This document shows, piece by piece, positions 8,503-60,581 of a DNA stretch of 64,000 nt. How positions within the stretch are numbered: the stretch's first letter is position 1; each line of letters starts with the position of its first letter. The position numbers were made by a program, and so were the translations under genes. The stretch is from Anaerolineae bacterium (GTDB lineage: Bacteria > Chloroflexota > Anaerolineae > 4572-78 > J111): NCBI GenBank assembly GCA_016931895.1, contig JAFGDY010000208.1, forward strand, positions 1 to 64,000, given 5' to 3'. The notes beneath the pieces are model-generated. The model made no database searches. It was given only the letters and a program-made list of their open reading frames with translations, and was not told the DNA's origin.

Positions 8503-11500
8503 TTAGGGCAACAACAATGTTTGGACCGATTGTTCCACATTCAAAAAAACCAATAAAACCTGGGGTTCGCTGCCCAGTTGTTGGGCAACAGCCTGGCGAT
8601 AAGCCTGGACCTGCCGGTCGTAACCCTTTTCAGCAATGTATGTTTGCAGATTGACCTTTGGGGGCAGCCGGTCTGTTTTGAATTCAACAATCGTCCAGGG
8701 AGTATCGGGCGCGGTGCGGAACAACAGGTCTATGATGCCGCTGTGTAATTGCCCCTCCAGCATCAGGTTGTAGGGCACTTCGTGATGACGTTCGGCCACG
8801 GCTAATTGTTGGTAGAGTGGATGCGCTTGAAAACGGGCCAACAATCTGGCGGTCCGTTTTAAGGCTGTCTCAATGCTGACCGGATCGGTCAGCCCGGCAT
8901 CCAGGGCAAAGGGACGCAAGAAATCGGGAAAATCCTCTGCATCGGGAAAATGCCAGTAACGCAGGGCAATATGGGTAAGGCTGCCGACCACCCAGGCCGG
9001 CACATCGTATTCACTGTCCGGCACCACCCGCCAAACCCGGGGAGGAGGGTCACTCTCCCATTCCTGAAGTTTTTCATCCAACTCGGCAGAAGGGGGTAAA
9101 GTTAAGGGCGCCAAGAGATCAAGGGACAGCGGCCGGGAGACAGGAACCGGAGAACGGTCTTCAGACAAAACCAGGCCGATGTTTTTGGGAGGAGGATAAA
9201 CGGTACAACCCACCGCGCCGTTTTGCCAGGCCAGGGAGATAGTTTGGGCGGCGGCGGGCGGTTCGGCCAACTGTATTTCATTCAGGCCAACGACCCCGGC
9301 CAGGTCGGCCAGCCAGCCGCTGCCTTGAAGTTGAACGGCAGTTTGTTTGGCCGTACTCAATTTTACATTGCCGGAAACAATAATCTTTTCCTGGGCCCGC
9401 GTGACAGCCACGTAGAGCAACCGCCGTTCCTCGGCTGCCTTTTGTTCCGCCTCGCGGTAACTGGCCAGGCGAAAGATAGCCGGTTGGGTTTCGGCATTGG
9501 CCAGGTTTAGGGCCAGCCCCAATTCCTGATCCAGGTAAAAGGGTATGGCGTGAAAACCGCCGGTATAGCCGGCATCGGCCAACACCACCACCGGGAACTC
9601 CAGACCTTTGGCTTTGTGAATGGTCATCAATTGCACAGCACCACCCGCTTCGGTAGGAGCCTCGCTCTCCCGCGCGCCAACGTCGCTTAGCGCCTCAAGA
9701 TATTCCAAAAATTCGGAAATATTGACCACTTCGCTGCGGTGGGCGTCGGCCAGCAGTTTGTCAACATTTCGGCGCAACCGCTCTCCGCCGGGAACCAGCC
9801 GCAGAATGGCCCGGTAATGCGTTTCATCCAAAAAACGTTTGAGCACCTGGGCCACCGAGACCCGTCCCACCTGGGCGTGCAAGGCGCCAATCATCCGGCA
9901 GGCAAAAGCAGCTCGCTGTTGTTCATCTTTAGCCAACGCGGCCAGCGCCTGGCCATTGTGTAAAGCCGGCCAAAAAGAACGGCGGGTATTGTCTTCGGCC
10001 CAACGCAATTGATAAAGGGCCGCATCGCTAAGGCCAATGGCGGGCGAACGAAGCAACCCGGCCAGGGCCAGGTCGTCGGTGGGATCGGCGATTGCGGCCA
10101 GGGCATTGAGTAAATCGCGTACTTCCGGCCGGTTGTAAAAACCGCGCCCGGCAATGGTCACAAAAGGAATGCCCACCTGCTCCAGGGCGTCTTCATACAC
10201 GCCAAAGGCCGTACTGGCCCGGAAGAGCAGAGCCACGTCCTGCCAGTAGATTTGGCCGGCAGCATGCAGTTTATGCAAATGATCCGCCAGGCCAACAGCG
10301 GCGGCCCGCCGACCTTCATTTTTGTCCGCACCCAGGCCAAGTTGAAATTCAAGATAAGGGGATTTTATACCCTGGCGCGGCTCCTGGCGAAAGGCGACCA
10401 GCGGGGCAAAGGGCACCTCAAAGGGGCGGACGGGGTCATCTTCGGCGAGCATCAGGGGCGACAAAAGCACGTTGGTCAGGCCAACCAGGGCGCTGTGCGC
10501 CCGGAAGGTCAGGTCAAAATTAATAAGAGCGCCCCCTGCCGCCTGAATATCCGTTTGCACCTGACGAAAAACGGCCACGTCCGCACCGCGAAACCTATAG
10601 ATGGATTGTTTGGCGTCGCCAACCACGAACAGGGAAGACTGGGAGATAGGAGAGTTGGGAGATAGTACTTGTCTATTCCTTTTTTTCGCCCCCTCCCCAT
10701 TTTGAGCAGGCACTGCGGTTTCAGCCGGCTCAAAACCGGCCAGGGCGTACACAATCTCCCGCTGGCGTTGGTTGGTATCCTGGAATTCGTCCACCAGCAG
10801 CACGGCCTGAATCTCCTGTTGCCAGCGAGCGCGGACAGATTCATGGCCGACTAATAAGCGAACGGTCATCTGCTCCAGGTCGTCAAAATCAAGGGCCTGG
10901 GCATTGTTTTTGTAGCCCCGGTAAACGGCGCATGTGTACTCAAACAAACGCCGCACCAGGGGCAGCAGGGCGGCGGCCTGCATGTCAAGCGCCCAGCTCG
11001 GCGGTTTTTTGGGGTCAACCAGGCGACCGATCACCTGGTCAAAATGGTCGCGCAGGGCGCGCATAGCTTCTCGCGCCGCCTCAAGATCGGCTGCCGCCCA
11101 GTTGCCTTTTTGCCCGCCGGTGGAAACGGCACCTCGCAGGGCCACCAACGCCTCAAATACAACCGGCCAGTCCCGATTGGCCTGGGCTTGAGCGGCCCGG
11201 TCCCAACAGGCCAGCACCGCCCGACGGGCGACCTCCAGTTTGTCATCCTCATTTTGGGACTGTAAGGCAGCCAGCGTTCGTAGGGATTCTGACCAGGCGG
11301 GCCAGGCCAGGCGGATGGCCAACCAATGGTTCAATACGGCGGACCACTCTGCCAGAAGTTGATCATCCGGTTTTGCGGCCAGGGTGGATTCGGCATCCAG
11401 ACGACGCGCCAGCAATTCCGCCAACAAATCACGCAGTTGCCCTTCCTGGAAAAAACTGAACAACTGCGCCACTTCCGGCTGAGTGGTCACCCAGGCCAAC

Positions 11501-11958
11501 CCCTCTTCCACCGCGTGCGCCTGCCAGAGGGCGCTTTGACCCTCGTCCAGCACGACAAAGCCTGGGTCAAGACCGGCCTCAACGGGGTGGGTGCGCAGAA
11601 TGACGGCGCATAGGCCGTGAATAGTGCTAATGCGGGCCGAGTCCAGGGCGCTGAATACTTCTTGCCACAACTGCCGGTCAGGGGTCGCTTCTGCCTGCGC
11701 CAACCACTGCGCGGTGAGGCCGCGCACCCGGTTACGCATTTCGCGGGCAGCTTTGTCGGTGAAGGTGATGGCCACCAGAGAGCGCAGCGGAAATTTCGAC
11801 TCCAACAGAGAAAGATAGCGTCCCACCAGGGCCCGCGTTTTGCCCGACCCCGCCCCGGCAGTAACGGAGATAGCTGTGTCGCGGGCCGTGGTTGCGGCCA
11901 GTTGGTCGTTGGTGAGTTGAAAGAGGGAGAGAATGGAAGAATTATCTTTCGTCGCCAT
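8503..11958 (-). CDS. addA: AddA-type helicase/nuclease subunit
   Basis: A 1151-residue UvrD-like superfamily 1 helicase with a C-terminal nuclease, matching AddA of the AddAB double-strand break end-resection complex (the RecBCD analogue). Motifs in order: Q-motif region, Walker A TAGAGSGKT (Lys40), Walker B VDEFQDTNQRQ, GDAKQSIYRFRGA, the long 2B insert, MTIHKAKGLEFPVV (motif V) and YVAVTRAQEK (motif VI). The PD-(D/E)XK nuclease has GIIDLLF and IVEFKTDR near the C-terminus. It begins three bases after the stop of the AddB gene, so the two are co-translated. The linker around residues 415-430 is low-complexity. Subunit assignment rests on gene pairing plus motifs. Confidence 0.92.
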   Translation of the reverse strand: MATKDNSSILSLFQLTNDQLAATTARDTAISVTAGAGSGKTRALVGRYLSLLESKFPLRSLVAITFTDKAAREMRNRVRGLTAQWLAQAEATPDRQLWQEVFSALDSARISTIHGLCAVILRTHPVEAGLDPGFVVLDEGQSALWQAHAVEEGLAWVTTQPEVAQLFSFFQEGQLRDLLAELLARRLDAESTLAAKPDDQLLAEWSAVLNHWLAIRLAWPAWSESLRTLAALQSQNEDDKLEVARRAVLACWDRAAQAQANRDWPVVFEALVALRGAVSTGGQKGNWAAADLEAAREAMRALRDHFDQVIGRLVDPKKPPSWALDMQAAALLPLVRRLFEYTCAVYRGYKNNAQALDFDDLEQMTVRLLVGHESVRARWQQEIQAVLLVDEFQDTNQRQREIVYALAGFEPAETAVPAQNGEGAKKRNRQVLSPNSPISQSSLFVVGDAKQSIYRFRGADVAVFRQVQTDIQAAGGALINFDLTFRAHSALVGLTNVLLSPLMLAEDDPVRPFEVPFAPLVAFRQEPRQGIKSPYLEFQLGLGADKNEGRRAAAVGLADHLHKLHAAGQIYWQDVALLFRASTAFGVYEDALEQVGIPFVTIAGRGFYNRPEVRDLLNALAAIADPTDDLALAGLLRSPAIGLSDAALYQLRWAEDNTRRSFWPALHNGQALAALAKDEQQRAAFACRMIGALHAQVGRVSVAQVLKRFLDETHYRAILRLVPGGERLRRNVDKLLADAHRSEVVNISEFLEYLEALSDVGARESEAPTEAGGAVQLMTIHKAKGLEFPVVVLADAGYTGGFHAIPFYLDQELGLALNLANAETQPAIFRLASYREAEQKAAEERRLLYVAVTRAQEKIIVSGNVKLSTAKQTAVQLQGSGWLADLAGVVGLNEIQLAEPPAAAQTISLAWQNGAVGCTVYPPPKNIGLVLSEDRSPVPVSRPLSLDLLAPLTLPPSAELDEKLQEWESDPPPRVWRVVPDSEYDVPAWVVGSLTHIALRYWHFPDAEDFPDFLRPFALDAGLTDPVSIETALKRTARLLARFQAHPLYQQLAVAERHHEVPYNLMLEGQLHSGIIDLLFRTAPDTPWTIVEFKTDRLPPKVNLQTYIAEKGYDRQVQAYRQAVAQQLGSEPQVLLVFLNVEQSVQTLLLP

Positions 11959-11961
11959 TAT

Positions 11962-14900
11962 CTACCAGCCTTTGGCCTGATACTGCCAACAAAATTTAAC
12001 TCCCGGACAGTGGCCGGGACAACCGGCGGGCGGCGGCAAGGGCGCAAACCAACCGGCCCGCACTCCGGCGATATGCTTAAAAGCATGATTGATGGCTGTG
12101 TTGAGCGCCCCGGCCACGCCGCCCTCAAATTTTTCAAGCTTGAGGCTGCTGGCTTTGGCCGAGCCGATGTGCCAGTAAAAACCATCGGCAATGTCGCCCA
12201 GGTGCAGCGCCTGGCGAGCAGCTAGGGCATAAAAGGCAATTTGTAAACGACGCCCCTCCACCAGGTCACGGGCAACGATGGGGGTAGCGCCTGATTTGTA
12301 ATCAATGATACACAAACGGCCATCGGCGGTTTGGTCTATCCGGTCAATGAAACCGCGCACTCTAAACTCATCTCCGTCACGTTGAACCACCAAAGGCGGT
12401 TCATCTTTCAGGCCAAAGGTCTGCTCCTGGGCCAACGGCGTATTGAGGGCGGTCACTTCGGCCAAAGCGGCCAGGGTTTTGGCCATGATTTGTTCCAATT
12501 CGCGCCGCTGCACGGCCCACAAAGCTGTGGGCCGGAAACCGTATACAGCCGGAGCTTTATCAAAAATTTCTTGGGCCACCGCAGGCAACAGGTCCAGTAA
12601 ATGTTCACTATCCGCCGGAGTATCGGCGACCCGGCGGTAGACCTCTTCCAAAATCTCGTGGTACATACTGCCCAGGATGAACACGTCGAAGCCCTCGGCC
12701 GGCGCCCGGCGCAATTCCAGGCCCAAATCTAACCATAGCCAAAAATGGTGCGGGCAAAGGCCATAGGCCTCCAAACGGGTAGCGCTCCACACGTGTTCAG
12801 GGCCGTAAACAGCCGTGAGCCGGTTGGACAAAGCAGACAAATCCCCCTCAAAAGGACCTTGCGGTGCAACGGCCAGGCGGGTTTGCAGCACAGCCACCCC
12901 CTGAACGGTTCGGGCGGCGGCGGCGGCTAATTTCTGCTCACCCTGGTCAAACTCGGCCGGTTCAAGTTGGGCCACCAAACCGCCCTGCACAAACTCTTGC
13001 GGCGAGGCCGACTCGCTTAAACCCGGCGGGGCTTCCGGCCGGATGTGTTCCGGCGGCGGTTGGTCAAACAAGCCGTACACTTGCGACCAATAGGGCGACG
13101 GCTCCCACGGTTGGCCGTCGTCGGCCAGGTAGGGGCGGCAGAGGAACAGCTTTTCCCGGGCGCGGGTCACGGCCTGGTAAAAAAGGGTGATCTCATCGCC
13201 TCGCAGGCGATTTTCCAGCGCAGACAGGCCGGCCAGGCGCAGGGCGCGGCGATCTTCTTCGCGCAGCAAAATGTCTTCCCGTTCGGGCCGGGGAAATTCG
13301 CCTTCGGCCAGGCCAAGCAACGCCACGGCCTTGAACGATAATCCCCGCGCGTCCAACGCCGACAGCACCGGCAGGGCCGCCTCCGGGGGGTCGGGCGGGG
13401 GCAGGGCGTAGGTAGCGCCCTGAACCGCGCCTTGCAGTTCCTGGTAAAATTGATCATATGTGATCTCAGGCGGGCTGGGAGAGGATGAACTCTGGCGCAA
13501 CGACGCTTCGGCCAGCACCAAGCCGCGCAGCGCATCTTTGAAAGCGCGCAGAGCCGCAATATCACGGAAGGCTGTGGCTGATACGGCCCTGGCGCGGTTG
13601 ACGAGACCAAGACTTTTTGCTTCTCCTTTTGAGGGAGAGAGGGTATCAATTTCCAATTTTGGGTCATCGCCGATGAGGTTTTCCACAAAAGCGGCGTACC
13701 GGCGCAGGGTGGTTTGGGGGGGCGGCGTGAGACGGCCCACAAAGGCCTCAAAAGCCTGTTGCAAAGCCAGGGCTTGGGTGTGGAGAAGCTGACCGGCGGA
13801 AAGGGCATCTTCGTCGTCTCGCGCTTCAAGGTTTGAGTGTTTAGACACTTGCGCTTGCAAAGCTTCCCGCCATTGATCAAGGCCTCGGATCACCAATCCC
13901 CGCCGGGCGACAACGTCGAGATGGTCGGCATGGGGAGTTCCCACGCCGGGGGCCAGGTTTTCAAAATAGGGGCTGCGCCAGGCGTCAACCATCCGACGAC
14001 GAGGCCAATTACCGTCAAGACTATCACTTTGGGCAGGCAGCGCCAACAACGAGAGCAGCGCCGCCACTGCGGGATTGGCGGCCAGGTTCAAACGCTCCCG
14101 GAGACGCAGGGTCAAACCAAATTCAGCCGCTACCTCCTCAATAAAGGGAGAGTAAGGGGTCAAATCACGGGCAATCAGGGCCACATCGGCGGGGGCCAGC
14201 CGGTCTCTGACCAGGCGGGCCTTCAGCCAACGCAGGGCGGCGCGGGTTTCTTCGGCTCGATTTTGGGCTTCGACAAAGGTGACGCTTGTCTGGGCAAGTT
14301 CTGCTTTTAAGGGGGCGGCGTGAGGATTAAAAAGGTTCGCTTCCAGGTGGGTCAGCGCAGCCGGAGACGGTGAAACAGATTCTTGGGGCAGCGGTTCCGG
14401 CTCAAGTTTTAAGGCTTCGCTGACGGCTTGCAAGGCCCGGGTAAAACGGCGCAAAGCCGGGCGGGCAGCGGTTCCGGCGGAGGCGAAAGCTGTGGCCGGG
14501 TCGCCGGTTAAGGTGATGATGGTTTCGGCGGCGCGTTGGGCCAAAGATTTGAGCACGTCTAACTGGGTGGGATTAAATTCGTCAAAGCCGTCAACAATGA
14601 GCAAGCGCAGGTGGCGTCCTAAATCGGGCTGGCGTTCCAGGGCCAGGGCGGCCAGCCAGCCCCGGCCTTCCGTGTCGGCCCAGCGGTAATCGAGCAGCCA
14701 ATCCTGGTAGATGGCGTATATGTCGGCCAATTCGGTGAGGCGGGGTTGCTGATGGGGCAGCGATTGGATGGCCTGGCGGAACGCCTCCCGCCGGATGCCG
14801 GCCCGTTTGAGTTCTTCCACCAACGAGCGCAGGGTCACTACAAAACCCGGTTTATCGCGTAGGGGGGCATAATAAGACAAACGGCCTTCATCGGTAAGCC

Positions 14901-15192
14901 GGGTGACGATGCTGCGCAACAGGTGATATTGCACGGGTTCGGGCAGGCATGGCTCCAGTTTACCGGCCCAGGCCAATATTTCGGCGTAGAGGCCGTAAAA
15001 GGTTTGTAACTGCACGCCCAGGGCACCCCCAGCGGCGCTCAAGCGGTAGCGGAAGGCGTTTACCTGGGCCTGGTTGGGGAGGATAACCTCAATAGAGGTC
15101 AGGGGGTCAGCAACGCGAACCTGGCGGATACGCTCCAGGGTATAGGCGGTTTTGCCGCGTCCGGCCGGGGCCAGGTAAAGGTGGATCGTCAT
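11962..15192 (-). CDS. addB: AddB-type helicase-like/nuclease subunit
   Basis: A 1076-residue partner of AddA. The N-terminal Walker A is APAGRGKT (Lys14); the rest of the helicase-like core is divergent, as is usual for AddB. The C-terminal PD-(D/E)XK nuclease shows RVRGFIDRID and IIDYKSGATP. Four cysteines fit the AddB iron-sulphur cluster: one in YGLCPHHFW before the nuclease motifs and three in CPGHCPGVKFC at the extreme C-terminus. Proline-rich low-complexity stretches occur around residues 270-290 and 580-610. It is read before addA and after the SNF2 gene. A heptad-repeat hairpin lies in the gap upstream. Confidence 0.88.
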   Translation of the reverse strand: MTIHLYLAPAGRGKTAYTLERIRQVRVADPLTSIEVILPNQAQVNAFRYRLSAAGGALGVQLQTFYGLYAEILAWAGKLEPCLPEPVQYHLLRSIVTRLTDEGRLSYYAPLRDKPGFVVTLRSLVEELKRAGIRREAFRQAIQSLPHQQPRLTELADIYAIYQDWLLDYRWADTEGRGWLAALALERQPDLGRHLRLLIVDGFDEFNPTQLDVLKSLAQRAAETIITLTGDPATAFASAGTAARPALRRFTRALQAVSEALKLEPEPLPQESVSPSPAALTHLEANLFNPHAAPLKAELAQTSVTFVEAQNRAEETRAALRWLKARLVRDRLAPADVALIARDLTPYSPFIEEVAAEFGLTLRLRERLNLAANPAVAALLSLLALPAQSDSLDGNWPRRRMVDAWRSPYFENLAPGVGTPHADHLDVVARRGLVIRGLDQWREALQAQVSKHSNLEARDDEDALSAGQLLHTQALALQQAFEAFVGRLTPPPQTTLRRYAAFVENLIGDDPKLEIDTLSPSKGEAKSLGLVNRARAVSATAFRDIAALRAFKDALRGLVLAEASLRQSSSSPSPPEITYDQFYQELQGAVQGATYALPPPDPPEAALPVLSALDARGLSFKAVALLGLAEGEFPRPEREDILLREEDRRALRLAGLSALENRLRGDEITLFYQAVTRAREKLFLCRPYLADDGQPWEPSPYWSQVYGLFDQPPPEHIRPEAPPGLSESASPQEFVQGGLVAQLEPAEFDQGEQKLAAAAARTVQGVAVLQTRLAVAPQGPFEGDLSALSNRLTAVYGPEHVWSATRLEAYGLCPHHFWLWLDLGLELRRAPAEGFDVFILGSMYHEILEEVYRRVADTPADSEHLLDLLPAVAQEIFDKAPAVYGFRPTALWAVQRRELEQIMAKTLAALAEVTALNTPLAQEQTFGLKDEPPLVVQRDGDEFRVRGFIDRIDQTADGRLCIIDYKSGATPIVARDLVEGRRLQIAFYALAARQALHLGDIADGFYWHIGSAKASSLKLEKFEGGVAGALNTAINHAFKHIAGVRAGWFAPLPPPAGCPGHCPGVKFCWQYQAKGW

Positions 15193-15373
15193 CAGTAATC
15201 AATCTTTAAAGTAACTACTCACCGCTCAAGCCAAATGACGCCATAAACAGACGACCAATGACCAACGACGAACGATCATTCTGACGAACGAACAATGACC
15301 AATTTTTACCGTTCGTCGTTGGTCGTTTGTCATTGGTCGGAAGGGGTCCTGGCCAAAGCAATAAACTCTCAAA
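15193..15373. repeat. Heptad-repeat hairpin array, copy A (core 15251-15341)
   Basis: The gap between the SNF2 and AddB genes is filled by runs of a 7-base unit, GAC-(C/G/A)-AA-(C/T), in both orientations. A perfect 15-bp inverted repeat GACCAACGACGAACG (15260-15274) pairs with its complement at 15310-15324, and a further heptad run lies between the arms (15283-15303). Related arrays are at 19484-19538, 22416-22454 and 60524-60581. It does not encode protein. Function unknown. Confidence 0.8.
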
Positions 15374-18226
15374 TCACAATCCCGCCTCCGCCACCAACTC
15401 GTAACCTTTGTTGACCAAATCCTGTACCGTCTCAATCAGGTTTTCGGCGGTTTCAATTGAAGGCGGCGGAGCTTCTTCCTCGTCGCCGGGCGGCGCGGTC
15501 AATTCGCGGACATGGGCCAGGCGGGCAGCCAGGCTTTCGTCAATCCGTTTGCTTTCCACCAATTCAGCTTGCACCAGGCGCGGCGAAGGCAGCTCGGGGC
15601 CGGGTTCGCGGTCTTTAACCAGGGTCAAATGAGCGGTCAAAGCCCAACCCAGGGCCTGGTGGATGGGGCGCATCACTTCTTCTGGAAAACCGCCTTGCAA
15701 CACCACCCGGGCCAGTTGCAGGCGTTTGCCGGCGGTATCCAGACCTTCGCGGGCTTTTTGCAGGCGGCGGGTATCGGCTTCGCGGACGGCAGCCGGGGCG
15801 GGCATAGAGGGGGCGCGGTAGAGATCGCCTTCGGCCTGGGGGCCGGGCTGTTCGATGGCTCCGCCGGTAAGGGCCAACAAGGCGCGATAACCTTCTTGTT
15901 CCATCAGGTGCAGGCCGGGGATTGTGGTCGACTCGTCTGCGCTGAAATGTTGGGTTAACAGTTTCTCAATCTGGGGCCGCAAATCGGCAGGGGTTTTGTC
16001 AACCACCACCAAAATGTTGCCGTTGGCTTGAGCGCCGGGGAGGTGAGGCGCGCGGCGCACCAGCATAATCCGGCCAGGGAAATGGCCCACCAGTAAATCG
16101 GCAAAGGCGCGCAGGGTTGGCGTGGCTGCCGGCTCCGGCGCGGCCTTGGGCGCCAGGTCCACCTTCACTTCCACCGGCGGCGCGCCCAACATTTCATCCA
16201 GCTTTTGCATCAAACTCTGGCCGGTATCGTGGAAGGTGATGGAATCGGGCGCTTCTTCGCTGCCAAAAACTCCGGCAAAAACGTCACGTTTGGCGGCCAG
16301 GGTATCGAGCATGCGCTCCTCGATGGTGCCTTTGGCCACCAAGTTGATGACGTTGACCGTATGCGGCTGGCCGTGGCGATGGGCGCGGGCAATGCGCTGG
16401 TCGAGCACCGCCGGATTCCAGGGCAAATCAAGATTGACGACCAGGCTGGCCGCCTGCAAATTCAGGCCCACACCGCCGGCATCAGTTGAGAGGAATACTT
16501 TGCACTGGTCGTCGTTAAAAAAACGTTCAATCAGCGCGCCGCGTTTGGGCGTGGGCACGTCACCGCTGAGGGTCACGTGGCCCAGATTGAGCCGGTTCAG
16601 CACGGGATAGGTCAGGTGGAGCATGGTGGTCCACTGGCTGAAGAGGATGGCCTTGTGACCGTTATTGGCCACTTCGTCGTCGAGGATTTCTGCCAATTCT
16701 TGCAGCTTGGGCGAGGTTTTTTCGCGCTCTTTTTCCGGCAGGTGAGGATCATGCAGGGCCAGGGCGTTGCAGATGAGGCGCATTTTGACCAGCGCGCCAA
16801 GCAGGATTTGGTGCTCTTTGGGCGTTAAGGGCCGGCGGCGGGCGGTGGCAATGAGTTTGGCCACGGTGTTACGGTATTCGTCGTAGGCTTTCCACTGGGG
16901 GTCGGTCATGGGCACAAAAAAGTTGCTGTCAATCCGTTCCGGCAGGTCTTTCAACACTTCATCCCGCACCCGGCGCAGCACATAGGGCGAGATTTCATGG
17001 CGCAGTTCTTCCAAATTTTTGTAGCCCAGCACTTTGTAGGAACCGGAGGAGCGACGCTCTACCTGGAAAAAACGTTGATTGAACCGCCACAACGGGCCAA
17101 GGATGTTGGGGTCAATAAATTGGAAAATACTGTAGAGTTCGTCCAGCCGGTTTTCCAACGGCGTGCCGGTCAACACAAAAGCGTAGGGGCTGCGCAAACG
17201 TTTGACGGCGTCGGCAGTTTTGGTGCGCCAGTTTTTAATGCGCTGGGCTTCGTCAAGGATGATGAGATCGGGCCGCAGGCTGCGCAGGTCTTCCTCGTCG
17301 CGCAGCACCAATTCGTAATTGATGATGTTAAAGAAAGCCGGGTTGTGGTAGGAGTTGCGGCGGGTGGTCAGGTCGCCTTCGATGACCTCCGCGGGAAAAG
17401 AGGTGAATCGTTTGATCTCGCGCGCCCACTGGTGTTTGAGCGAGGCAGGACAAACAACCAACACTCGCTGGATGTCGCGCAATTGGTTGAGCAGGCTGCT
17501 GGCGGCGATGGCCTGCACGGTTTTACCCAAGCCCATATCGTCGGCCAGCATGGCCCGGCGGCCAAAAGCCAGGTGCATAGCGCCCTGCTCCTGGTAAGGA
17601 TAAAGGGGCGTGGAAAGCAGATTGAGGGAACGCTGGCCACGCTCGATTTGCTCTGTGAACCATTCTTTCTGGCGTTGAATGGCCTCAATGTCTTGCAGGC
17701 GCTCTAAATAACTGTATACTTCGGGCGTGATTTGAATAGAGTCGCGTTGCGCGGCGGACAGAGCCTCGATGTCTTGCAGCAGGGCGGGTAGGGTTTTGGT
17801 GACCGAGCCGGTGAGCAGACCGTCGGCGTCAAAATAACGATGCAGGGTTTCGCGCAAGGCTGATTTTTCCGGCAGGGGGAGGGTGATCCGCACGGTGGTT
17901 TCTTCGGCGTGGTGCAGAAAAATTTGGGATACAGGCGGCCGTTGGGCGGCTACTGCGTCCCACTGATCGCCCAGATTCTCTTTGAGGTGGAGCAGGACCG
18001 CTTCGATATGCTTACAAGTGCCCAACAAGTTGGTTTTATAATCGGCGCAGGAGCAACTATTGAGCAAATCCGTTAAAGAGCGAATCTGAACCCGGTAGGT
18101 TTGTTTGGATTGTGAGGTCACGTCAAAAAGGCTATAAACGGGCTGGCTGCCTTTGTTTTCAATAGCGGCAATATCTTCAGTAGCGCGTTTGCGGCGGCGC
18201 TCGATCTGTTCTTGGACGTCAACCAT
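15374..18226 (-). CDS. SNF2-family helicase with SWIM zinc finger
   Basis: A 950-residue DEAD/SNF2 ATPase. An N-terminal SWIM finger reads CSCADY...GTCKHIEAVL (about residues 60-85). The SNF2 core has DDMGLGKTVQAIA (Walker A), LIILDEAQRIKNW (Walker B, DEAQ), LTGTPLENRLDELYS, then helicase C motifs ILFSQWTTML, TDAGGVGLNLQ and DQRIARAHRHGQPHTV. A C-terminal region of about 250 residues is not recognised. The start at 18226 is chosen over 18256 because AAGGAG lies six bases before it. SNF2 proteins remodel protein-DNA complexes; here the location directly upstream of addB-addA suggests a role in DNA repair or in clearing proteins from DNA. This functional link is inference. Confidence 0.92.
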   Translation of the reverse strand: MVDVQEQIERRRKRATEDIAAIENKGSQPVYSLFDVTSQSKQTYRVQIRSLTDLLNSCSCADYKTNLLGTCKHIEAVLLHLKENLGDQWDAVAAQRPPVSQIFLHHAEETTVRITLPLPEKSALRETLHRYFDADGLLTGSVTKTLPALLQDIEALSAAQRDSIQITPEVYSYLERLQDIEAIQRQKEWFTEQIERGQRSLNLLSTPLYPYQEQGAMHLAFGRRAMLADDMGLGKTVQAIAASSLLNQLRDIQRVLVVCPASLKHQWAREIKRFTSFPAEVIEGDLTTRRNSYHNPAFFNIINYELVLRDEEDLRSLRPDLIILDEAQRIKNWRTKTADAVKRLRSPYAFVLTGTPLENRLDELYSIFQFIDPNILGPLWRFNQRFFQVERRSSGSYKVLGYKNLEELRHEISPYVLRRVRDEVLKDLPERIDSNFFVPMTDPQWKAYDEYRNTVAKLIATARRRPLTPKEHQILLGALVKMRLICNALALHDPHLPEKEREKTSPKLQELAEILDDEVANNGHKAILFSQWTTMLHLTYPVLNRLNLGHVTLSGDVPTPKRGALIERFFNDDQCKVFLSTDAGGVGLNLQAASLVVNLDLPWNPAVLDQRIARAHRHGQPHTVNVINLVAKGTIEERMLDTLAAKRDVFAGVFGSEEAPDSITFHDTGQSLMQKLDEMLGAPPVEVKVDLAPKAAPEPAATPTLRAFADLLVGHFPGRIMLVRRAPHLPGAQANGNILVVVDKTPADLRPQIEKLLTQHFSADESTTIPGLHLMEQEGYRALLALTGGAIEQPGPQAEGDLYRAPSMPAPAAVREADTRRLQKAREGLDTAGKRLQLARVVLQGGFPEEVMRPIHQALGWALTAHLTLVKDREPGPELPSPRLVQAELVESKRIDESLAARLAHVRELTAPPGDEEEAPPPSIETAENLIETVQDLVNKGYELVAEAGL

Positions 18227-18439
18227 GGTGTGCTCCTTTTTCATAAAAACCGGCAAAGATAACGACCCATTGTGCGTAATTCTGCCGGGTGTTTTTTAAG
18301 ACGTGTTGCGTAGACGGAAGACAGTGTACGCAGCATTTATTCAAACTGAACGAGGCAGGCTAATTACAACCAACCGGCTGAGATATTTTAACACGCTTGT
18401 TTATTTGGAGCTAAATTGGGGAGAACGTATCAACAATAT

Positions 18440-19483: not shown

Positions 19484-19538
19484 AGCGACGAATGACGAAC
19501 AAGTAAAGTTGGTCATTGGTCGTTCGTCGTTGGTCGTA
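19484..19538. repeat. Heptad-repeat hairpin array, copy B
   Basis: Left arm GCGACGAATGACGAAC, right arm made of TTGGTCA, TTGGTCG, TTCGTCG and TTGGTCG units, which are the reverse complement of the GACNAAY heptad. The arms can pair. It lies 60 bases upstream of def and 110 bases downstream of the DnaA boxes. Confidence 0.75.
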
Positions 19539-22279: not shown

Positions 22280-22604
22280 TCGGAAAATCATCCATAGTTT
22301 CGTATATTTTTTGAAAAATGACGACAATGCCGAAGATTATACGGCAAGAAACTCCCTTTGTCAACGGGCCAATCAGGGGAATTTTGATGAGGCCAATTTG
22401 CGTGAGGCGAGAGGGGATGACCAACGACCAAAGACGAACGACAAACGACGGGCGCATATAATCGTCAGGGAGGGAATTCACCTGTACGGGATTCCCGGCT
22501 CATGTCATTTCGAGTGGAGCGTAGGAAGCCTGGCGGCTGTAGCGGAATCAGAAATCTCCTTGTATTAAGGCCGGCCGGCAACCGGCAGCCCAAAAGCTGT
22601 GAGT
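22280..22604. other. Intergenic region with heptad array C and a dispersed repeat fragment
   Basis: No gene is seen between the Lrp gene and the end of the amidase gene. It holds a one-orientation heptad array at 22416-22454 (AACGACC, AAAGACG, AACGACA, AACGACG units) and, at about 22503-22562, a fragment beginning TGTCATTTCGAG and ending AGAAATCTCCTTG that matches parts of the 52734-52933 element. Confidence 0.6.
22416..22454. repeat. Heptad-repeat array, copy C (single orientation)
   Basis: Units GATGACC, AACGACC, AAAGACG, AACGACA and AACGACG follow without gaps, keeping the 7-base period while varying the fourth and seventh positions of the GACNAAY unit. Unlike copies A, B and D there is no facing arm. 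Confidence 0.7.
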
Positions 22605-29264: not shown

Positions 29265-32162
29265 GTGACTCTTAAATACGTTCTCAAAAGTCTCAATCGC
29301 CACAAAATCCGCACCATTTTGATGCTCCTGGCCCTGCTGGTGGGCGTGAGTGCCCTGGTTGCCCTCAACGCCACGGTAGACACCTACGAGCGCTTTTACC
29401 TGGCCACCATCAGCAACAGCGCCGGCGACTATGATTTGGTTATCACCAAAAAGCAGATTGAGCCAAATTTGTTGATTGACGTGCCGCGGATCATCCCGGC
29501 CGTTCAAAGCAGCGACCCCCAAATAACGCGGATTGTGCCGCGCATTCAGGGAGTGGCAGATGTAGACGTATCCCCTTCTGTTCCACCCGGCGGGGAGGAA
29601 GAAGGAACGAGCGAAACTGTTCATGGCAGTGCCCAATTTATCGCCCTGAATCGAGAGATTGACGATATGGGCACGTTTGAGGTAGTCAGTGGCACGCTCA
29701 ATTTTGGCCCCGGCTATGCCGTGGTTTTGCAGGAAACCGCCGACACTTTTGGCCTTGGCCCCGGCGATACCTTTGACCTCAGCTACGCCTTGCCCCTGCC
29801 GCGCCAAAAAGGCGTGGAAAGCGCGTCGGATACCAGCACCCGGCGGGTCAGAACCACGCTCACCGTAAGCGCCATTGCCCTGCAACGGGGCGTCACCGGC
29901 CTGGACGACAACGATGGTGTACTGGTTGACCTGGCCTACGTGCAGAATTGGTTGGGCGTGCCAAACCAGGCCGAACGGATTGTGGTTGCTTTTGATAAAA
30001 GCCTCTACAGCAATAACGACCCCCAGGCGGCGGCGTTTCGGGCGCGCGCGCTGGCCGAAAGAATCCAGGATATATTGGGCGAAACCTACGATTACACCCT
30101 GCCCCGCGCCACCATTTTTACCAACACTTTTGAGTTTTTTATCTTTTTTCAGGCGTTGACATCTGTTTACGGCATTTTGTCGTTGAGCGTGGTGGGCCTG
30201 TTGGTGCGCACTATGGTAATGACCAACGTCCGCGAACAAACCCGCGACCTGGCCCTATTTCGCATTATCGGAGCGCCGCGCCATTACCTGTTTAGCCTGG
30301 TGGCGGTTGAAGTAGCCACGCTGGGCCTGATTGGGATTGGGCTGGGCGCGGTCAGCGGGCAATTATTGAACAATACCCTGATTGTGTCGTTCATTTCTCA
30401 GCAGGCCAATGTGCCCATTACCGATATTCCCCCTGTCTCCATGAGAGCGTTGGTGGTATCCATCGCCACCGCCGCAATTGTGCTGGTTGTCAGCGCCTAC
30501 ACCCCGGCTCAACGCGCCGCCGGCACCAAGATCATGTACGCCATCAATCCCGGCATCGCCGAGGGCCTGGGCCTGGACGACCTGGCCAAACTGCGGGAGC
30601 GGCGGGTTGACTTGCGCATTTTCCGCAGCGGCGCGGTTGTTCTTTTTTTCCCGGTTTTGATCTTTTTTGTCTTTCCCCTGGCCTTTACGTTTGGCGTGCT
30701 CTGGGTGCAGGCGGTTTTGATTTTTGGTTCGCTGCTGTTGCTCATTGTGGGCACAGCCTTACTCTTTTTCCCGGTCACGCTGCCTATACAGCGGCTATTG
30801 ATCGGCCTGATCAAAATGGCGGCCGGTAAAGTGGGCTATTTTGCCCAACGCAATATTCTGCGCGCCCAAAATCGCAACACCTTGATCAGCCTGATGATTG
30901 TGATCAGCGCCACCCTGCCCACCTTTTTTGCCACCACCCTGGCCATAGAAACCGCCAACACCGCCACCGACACCCGCCTGAACAACGGCGCGCCCCTCAT
31001 CATCCGCAAATGGGGCGCGGTTCAGGTAGAGGAAGAAATCGGCGGGCCAGGCCCTGTTCAGGCTGCGCCGACAGAAGTTAAAAATCGCTTCAACCGCGAA
31101 CTGTTAGCCGAACTCAGGGCCGAGGGCACGCTTGGCCCCAATGTAGCCGTTACTTATCGGTTCAACACCAATATTTGGGACGACGTTGGCCTGCGAAATG
31201 TGGGCGTGCGCGTGTATGGCCTGGACGGCAACCTAGCCGAAATCACTTACGCCGAAGGGATTGAGTGGCTTGCCGGCAGCACCGCCAGCTTTGACGAAGT
31301 TATGGCCGACCCCAACGCCGTCATTGTCAGCCAAGGGCTATCCGAATATTTTGAGCGGGGGGTGGGCGACACGCTGCGCTTAAAGGGGGAAGGGCTGGAC
31401 CATACCCGCATTGTGCGCATTGTGGGCGTGTTGGGACGTTTCTCCGGATTCAACGGCTTCACGTCTAAACGCACCACGGCCCAAGAGGGTCGCACAGACC
31501 TTTTTATCAATGCCACAGCCTTCCGCGAGTTGACGCGCGACCCGCTGGACGGCCCCTATGATCCCACCTATCCTATTTTTGAGCGGCTGATGGCTGCTCC
31601 CAACCTGCGGCCCGGCCTGCTGGGCCTGCCCGAAGAGGTAGGCGATGAAGCCATCCGGCAAGTTGCCGCCAAACTGCGCAAAGAATTTGGCCTCACCGAA
31701 AATGTGAGCGTCAATTCAACCCCCGAACGCATCGAGTCAATCCAGGCCGACGCGCAGCAGGGGCAGGTGGTCATTTTGGTTTTGACCAGCATCAGCTTCA
31801 TTTTGGCCATTTTTGGCGTTTTTGTGGTCACCTATATCGCCGTCTATACCCGCCGGGCGGAGATAGCCATGCTCAAGGCCATGGGGTCGTCGAATCGACA
31901 CCTGTTTGGCATGTTTTTGAGCGAAGCCCTGGTGATGACCCTGAGCGCCACCCTCACCGGCATTGTGGCCGGCATTATTTTGGGCTACGTGTTCCGCTAC
32001 TCCAACTCATTTAGCGCCGAAACCCCCACCGTGCCCGCCTTTGACACCCTGGTTACGCCCTATATGCTCGCCTTGATGATCGTGGCCGCCCTGGTAAGCA
32101 CCCTGCTGGCTACCTGGGGGTATCTCCGCCGCAAAGCCATAGAGATCTTTAGGGCCATTTAG
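29265..32162 (+). CDS. FtsX/MacB-like ABC transporter permease, no ATPase partner nearby
   Basis: A 965-residue membrane protein with the layout TM - large extracytoplasmic domain - three TM (FtsX domain about 290-410) - second half with four further TM stretches and another extracytoplasmic domain - final FtsX domain (about 835-960). Typical segments are SLNRHKIRTILMLLALLVGVSA at the N-terminus (shortened here: HKIRTILMLLALLVG) and RAEIAMLKAMGSSNRHLFGM near the end. Such permeases work with a LolD/MacB-type ATPase in lipoprotein or lipid export or mechanotransmission. None is encoded on either side, so the partner must be elsewhere. The start is GTG with only a weak ribosome site. The final 14 bases overlap the convergent gene. 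Confidence 0.85.
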   Translation: MTLKYVLKSLNRHKIRTILMLLALLVGVSALVALNATVDTYERFYLATISNSAGDYDLVITKKQIEPNLLIDVPRIIPAVQSSDPQITRIVPRIQGVADVDVSPSVPPGGEEEGTSETVHGSAQFIALNREIDDMGTFEVVSGTLNFGPGYAVVLQETADTFGLGPGDTFDLSYALPLPRQKGVESASDTSTRRVRTTLTVSAIALQRGVTGLDDNDGVLVDLAYVQNWLGVPNQAERIVVAFDKSLYSNNDPQAAAFRARALAERIQDILGETYDYTLPRATIFTNTFEFFIFFQALTSVYGILSLSVVGLLVRTMVMTNVREQTRDLALFRIIGAPRHYLFSLVAVEVATLGLIGIGLGAVSGQLLNNTLIVSFISQQANVPITDIPPVSMRALVVSIATAAIVLVVSAYTPAQRAAGTKIMYAINPGIAEGLGLDDLAKLRERRVDLRIFRSGAVVLFFPVLIFFVFPLAFTFGVLWVQAVLIFGSLLLLIVGTALLFFPVTLPIQRLLIGLIKMAAGKVGYFAQRNILRAQNRNTLISLMIVISATLPTFFATTLAIETANTATDTRLNNGAPLIIRKWGAVQVEEEIGGPGPVQAAPTEVKNRFNRELLAELRAEGTLGPNVAVTYRFNTNIWDDVGLRNVGVRVYGLDGNLAEITYAEGIEWLAGSTASFDEVMADPNAVIVSQGLSEYFERGVGDTLRLKGEGLDHTRIVRIVGVLGRFSGFNGFTSKRTTAQEGRTDLFINATAFRELTRDPLDGPYDPTYPIFERLMAAPNLRPGLLGLPEEVGDEAIRQVAAKLRKEFGLTENVSVNSTPERIESIQADAQQGQVVILVLTSISFILAIFGVFVVTYIAVYTRRAEIAMLKAMGSSNRHLFGMFLSEALVMTLSATLTGIVAGIILGYVFRYSNSFSAETPTVPAFDTLVTPYMLALMIVAALVSTLLATWGYLRRKAIEIFRAI

Positions 32163-60523: not shown

Positions 60524-60581
60524 CGACGAGGGACGAAGGACGAACGACGCAACGTGGTCGTTGGTCATTGGCCGTTGGTCA
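60524..60581. repeat. Heptad-repeat hairpin array, copy D
   Basis: Left arm GACGAGG, GACGAAG, GACGAAC, GACG; then CAACG; right arm TGGTCGT, TGGTCAT, TGGCCGT, TGGTCAG. The left arm reads GACNAAY-like units and the right arm their complements. It sits between the frameshifted gene and the leader of the sugar-binding lipoprotein gene. Confidence 0.75.

Follow-up and report, generated by a model that had tools for sequence, protein, structure and literature searches.

Inward-facing arrays of a degenerate heptad with two unlike arms form a dispersed intergenic repeat family in an Anaerolineae bacterium

The window analyzed here, a 64,000-nucleotide stretch of an Anaerolineae genome, carries an addA/addB-like gene pair for double-strand break repair (8503-15192) and a SNF2-family helicase gene (15374-18256), and the gap between them, which the gene pair directly adjoins, holds an array of degenerate heptads designated copy A (15251-15341). 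Copy A was composed of a left arm of GACNAAY units on the plus strand (ACGACCAATGACCAACGACGAACGA, 15251-15275), a second forward run between the arms (15288-15302, plus strand), both assigned from sequence, and a right arm of reverse heptads (15310-15339, minus strand), assigned from sequence and folding; heptad runs in both orientations with a third run between them, as described in the initial annotation, are indeed present. The perfect 15-bp inverted repeat that had been noted was also found (15260-15274 / 15310-15324), along with a longer alternative pairing of 24 nt at 92% (15252-15275/15316-15339). Folding of the copy A strand with DNA parameters surpassed 200 of 200 dinucleotide shuffles (z -5.8). 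As to arm type, copy A is mixed and shows little polarity. The arrays claimed for three other gaps of the window were located as well: copy B (19486-19537, unstranded) is two-armed, with a left arm of GACGAAY and a right arm mostly of GACCAAY, and lies 61 bp upstream of a peptide deformylase gene; copy C (22417-22450, plus strand) is a one-arm array of 4 units; and copy D (about 60532-60580, unstranded) is a short two-arm element. All four copies reside in gaps between predicted genes. The broader statement that such arrays never occur in genes held for window runs of at least 15 nt, but failed for two runs of 12-13 nt inside genes (11901-11913 and 30217-30228), which are short enough for chance.

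A search of the 6.06-Mb assembly for (GACNAAY)3 returned 127 matches, 65 forward and 62 reverse, as against 0 for the reversed control pattern, documenting that the heptads occur elsewhere in the genome. In the first 410 kb of sampled loci, which are 88% coding, 56 of the 57 heptad runs of at least 16 nt lay outside genes. Match count and gene avoidance together support a genome-wide intergenic family. The gene statistics were drawn from about 590 kb of loci fetched around matches, and thus selected for carrying them, with genes called by a simple dicodon script; this selection does not account for the gene avoidance. The tandem-repeat spectrum of the sampled loci, in which period 7 ranked top (114 arrays) and period 12 second (39 arrays), is biased, since the loci were chosen for having matches.

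All 53 two-arm copies that were parsed face inward, in the order (GACNAAY)n - short loop - (RTTNGTC)m. This order was seen in 27 copies of the discovery loci, none showing the opposite, and again in 26 of 26 copies of loci fetched after the pattern had been noticed. The loop has a median length of 7 nt and is often AT-rich; ten copies are loop-less, the last forward unit abutting the first reverse unit, as in GACCAATTTCGTC. For 157 units with perfect neighbors on either side, a filter that favors the fixed positions, positions 1-3, 5 and 6 were 91-98% fixed, whereas position 4 was C in 93 and G in 54, and position 7 was C in 95 and T in 45, so that positions 4 and 7 still stood far from the rest. 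The composition of these units thus bears out the fixed and variable positions that had been described. Adjacent units were no more similar than in within-array shuffles (lag 1 z of -1.6 at position 4 and -0.9 at position 7), unlike a simple microsatellite, in which neighbors are more alike than shuffled; the earlier contention that these arrays differ from ordinary slippage microsatellites is therefore sustained, and recent single-unit slippage as their only cause is ruled out by the unlikeness of neighboring units. An interior not made of heptads, GACCAACGTTGACCGG...GTAAATT, is common to the copies at L131:14091 and L134:11085. At L263:2432-2634, a reverse array runs to as many as 21 units, with position 4 alternating between C and G; it is unlike the other copies and resembles a 14-bp higher-order repeat.

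The initial annotation had also taken the arrays to be under a pairing constraint, which comparison of the two arms did not support. Position 4 was complementary between arms in 42 of 168 comparisons, against 0.43 expected, and none of 5000 shuffles gave so low a value. Counted from the loop outward, the discovery set gave 14 of 90 (0.40 expected) and the replication set 28 of 78 (0.36, with 0.43 expected; P 0.09), the replication-set test in this loop register being weak when taken alone. Complementarity at position 7 did not exceed chance (0.357 vs 0.411). Instead of the co-variation of arms that had been proposed as a check, its opposite was therefore seen at position 4, which rules out a simple hairpin maintained through compensatory changes. 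The compensatory changes of a structured RNA were likewise not found, position 4 being anti-matched and position 7 at chance, and no Rfam family matched at gathering score, the only hit being mir-4529 with 25 bits against a cut-off of 88. The C-fractions of the two arms were anti-correlated in the discovery set (rho -0.75, p 7e-6) as well as in the replication set (rho -0.52, p 0.006). Furthermore, position 7 was T in 84 and G in 7 of the 259 units with C at position 4 (C-units), as against T in 26 and G in 50 of the 216 units with G at position 4 (G-units), a difference in composition with p 1.7e-15. From the anti-correlated arms and the difference at position 7 it follows that the element has two distinct ends, namely a C-arm of (GACCAAY)n and a G-arm of GACGAA(C/G) units.

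With regard to placement, for the copies in 44 codirectional gaps the median distance to the upstream stop codon was 12.5 bp and that to the next start codon 61.5 bp, the stop side being the closer one in 33 (binomial p 0.001). Strong folding was seen in many copies. There was no excess in convergent gaps, which make up 7% of gap bases and held 4 of 60 located copies. The direction from C-arm to G-arm was sense to codirectional neighbors in 7 cases and antisense in 10. This lack of a fixed orientation to transcription argues against an mRNA-end structure in its polar form, one of the roles suggested at the outset, and random orientation together with the absence of a convergent-gap excess rules out a polar mRNA terminator.

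The number of heptads varies among genomes of the same family, where most arrays are one-armed; in two of them, G004 and G006, the reversed control pattern had many matches, which suggests that this bacterial family also harbors heptad families built on another unit. Several flavors (GACNAAY, GAANAAY, GATNAAY) were found across relatives, with other flavors common in the order. The same-genus genome G001 had only three pattern matches. Its element at C88:4388-4493, laid out as C-arm, loop and G-arm, is missing from the homologous C305 of G000, with flanks 92% identical downstream and 84.6% identical over a 4.1-kb upstream stretch; a terminator-like hairpin adjoining the element is kept in both. 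The syntenic C34:38427-38457 of G001 lacks the element found at L132:8960-9052. These empty sites could be deletions. For L130:15413-15552, the orthologous G001 gap carries heptads of a different flavor (GAGTAAT/GAACAAT), which therefore leaves room for in-place turnover and fits it as well as insertion. The first 6.5 kb of G001 C88 (L258:1-6564 vs L261 and L140) share 85-92% identity with G000, compared with about 70-80% elsewhere; because the rest of C88 is only ~75% identical to G000, this first stretch looks, by its identity values, like a recent exchange, a mosaic assembly or mis-assembly, or mis-binning. Two other dispersed hairpins were observed. One, CTCGTTCCCAAACT..AGTTTGGGAACGAG, occurs at L253:2698-2732, L235:1865-1910 and in several G000 contigs, and is also present in C88 and missing from C305; the other, about 100 nt long, GTCATTTCGAG..CTCGAAATGAC, occurs at L135:13090-13190 and L132:8048-8160, and has many copies in the same-genus genome.

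REP, BIME and REPIN sequences, with their TnpA-REP transposases, are short dispersed extragenic palindromes that often follow stop codons. The arrays described here differ from them in their heptad-built arms and in that no linked transposase was found; inspection of the copies by eye revealed no single conserved palindrome and no GTAG/CGTC foot tag, although CGTC recurs in every G-unit. The genome contains four Y1-transposase matches, and the stretches fetched around all four were free of heptads, whereas a TnpA-REP system has a cognate transposase gene flanked by the repeats. For a REP-associated tyrosine transposase-like gene in C87 (L284:2676-3239; NF047646, 76.8 bits with a cut-off of 80), situated between type I restriction-like genes, the 6.5 kb retrieved around it were free of heptads, and a REP transposase was thus rejected as the partner. 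No Y1 match was returned from the incomplete assemblies of array-rich relatives such as G007. No terminal motif was seen in the copies, and when filled and empty sites were aligned and inspected by eye, no target-site duplication stood out, the borders of these sites being unclear. Masked all-against-all comparison of the copy flanks revealed no conserved flanking motif, its one strong hit being a 36-nt match between L126 and L127 outside the arrays.

Arrays of degenerate heptamers between genes are already established as a kind of bacterial repeat, and the present family fits among the dispersed ones by its tandem 7-nt unit with fixed and variable positions at many loci, its non-coding excess, its proximity to stop codons and its location in gaps of aligned genes. 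In cyanobacteria, short tandemly repeated repetitive (STRR) heptanucleotides, reportedly known from the work of Mazel in 1990 and later, are tandem heptads in gaps. Among the matches listed for a collection of named genomes, the exact GACNAAY unit was abundant in cyanobacteria (Nostoc, Tychonema, Microcoleus and others), and was also found in Promineifilum, Anaerolineae, Bacteroidetes and a few others. In these listed and largely cyanobacterial matches, 85 of 110 arrays were one-armed, two-arm arrays faced outward in 22 cases and inward in 1, and adjacent units were alike (z 4.5 and 6.5). The arrays of this set are thus mostly one-armed or outward, in contrast to the inward pairs here, and neighbor likeness, the mark of slippage, is present there and missing in this genome. 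According to PMC4692102 (Rehm et al. 2015), the GGGAATC / GGGGA(C/T)T repeats of Xanthomonas and Nostoc are degenerate, dispersed, intergenic heptamers, mostly between aligned ORFs and in many cases no more than 50 bp from a stop codon, with a G-rich unit that forms quadruplexes; in Xanthomonas, the GGGAATC family counts 70-75 convergent pairs in each genome, forming inverted repeats. The present arrays share with them the fixed and variable positions, dispersal, location in gaps, stop proximity and facing pairs, and differ in that almost all copies are inward pairs and in the unlike arms, which are not reported in the passages of PMC4692102 consulted. GACNAAY also lacks a run of three G and thus the makings of a G-quadruplex. 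With the heptad widespread in cyanobacteria, and facing arrays near stops in Xanthomonas (PMC4692102), the initial impression that this was not a described element was not supported. The heptads of the Nostoc trnL intron P6b (TDNGATT, NNTGAGT; PMC4476775) similarly build both arms of a hairpin from degenerate units, but do so at one locus in a group I intron with pairing kept, whereas the copies here are dispersed with anti-matched arms. The dispersed intergenic TAACTGA heptamers of Beggiatoaceae, also found in cyanobacteria, are unlike the present ones in their near-invariant unit, almost exclusively direct repeats and location mostly just before start codons (PMC4679880). In the open-access literature, to the extent that its texts were accessible, no described family was found that has nearly all copies as inward pairs together with unlike arms, and reports on heptads in Chloroflexota were not found there either. 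What is new here is the host group, the unlike arms, and the pair of filled and empty sites.

The main rival of a dispersed element is slippage in place, whereby period-7 repeats form and turn over on the spot in tolerant gaps and acquire their arms by template switching, without movement or function. It draws strength from the lead of period 7 in the tandem-repeat spectrum, the several heptad flavors across relatives, the different flavor in the orthologous G001 gap, and a heptamer slippage bias whose proposal is cited in PMC4692102 and PMC4679880. Nonetheless, we regard it as possible but doubtful, considering that neighbors here resemble each other no more than shuffled units do, unlike in the named-genome set, that the variation is concentrated at positions 4 and 7, that the arm order is always inward, and that template switching predicts matching arms whereas these are anti-matched. 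The arrays might instead be a functional 3'-end or structural site, i.e., a stem-loop or protein-binding array after genes that stabilizes mRNA, insulates transcription or binds nucleoid proteins; the conservation of five of the seven positions is what a recognized unit would be expected to show, many copies fold strongly, and the stop codon is near. However, stop proximity also fits simple tolerance, position 4 complementarity is below chance, orientation shows no preference, convergent genes have no excess of copies, the C88 copy stands after an intact terminator-like hairpin, and copies are missing at syntenic gaps of the sister species, all of which make this account unlikely. A dedicated enzyme that writes the array by template-guided heptad addition would explain the strict period 7, the fixed core and the two degenerate positions, and would suit the unlike neighbors and the recurrence of the same heptad in unrelated phyla, but no gene was linked to the arrays, and we hold this to be extremely improbable.

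The favored reading, to which we give about even confidence, is that the arrays constitute a dispersed, non-coding, non-autonomous family of intergenic elements, heptad-built and REP/MITE-like in behavior, which corresponds to the mobile hairpin family among the possibilities first listed. It is supported by family size, gene avoidance, inward order, unlike arms, random orientation, post-stop position and the presence of an element in one allele where a homologous one lacks it. Copies of such an element would reach new gaps through a putative factor acting on a single-stranded or cruciform form, and their unit number would change afterwards by slippage or recombination. A polar master copy may have handed down the unlike arms, which may persist since perfect long palindromes tend to be cut or deleted. 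It is also conceivable, although quite improbable, that a class of mobile elements is made solely of two unlike, facing heptad arrays, in which the unit would be the recognition site, the two unit types would mark the two ends, and the mismatches every 7 bases would keep the hairpin usable by its mover and safe from palindrome-cutting nucleases.

The anti-matched arms help to distinguish local slippage from inherited copying. Heptamer arrays are found again and again in unrelated bacteria, and this genome, with its many copies of definable polarity, a filled and empty homologous pair, and relatives with other flavors, bears on why the period is seven and how such arrays spread.
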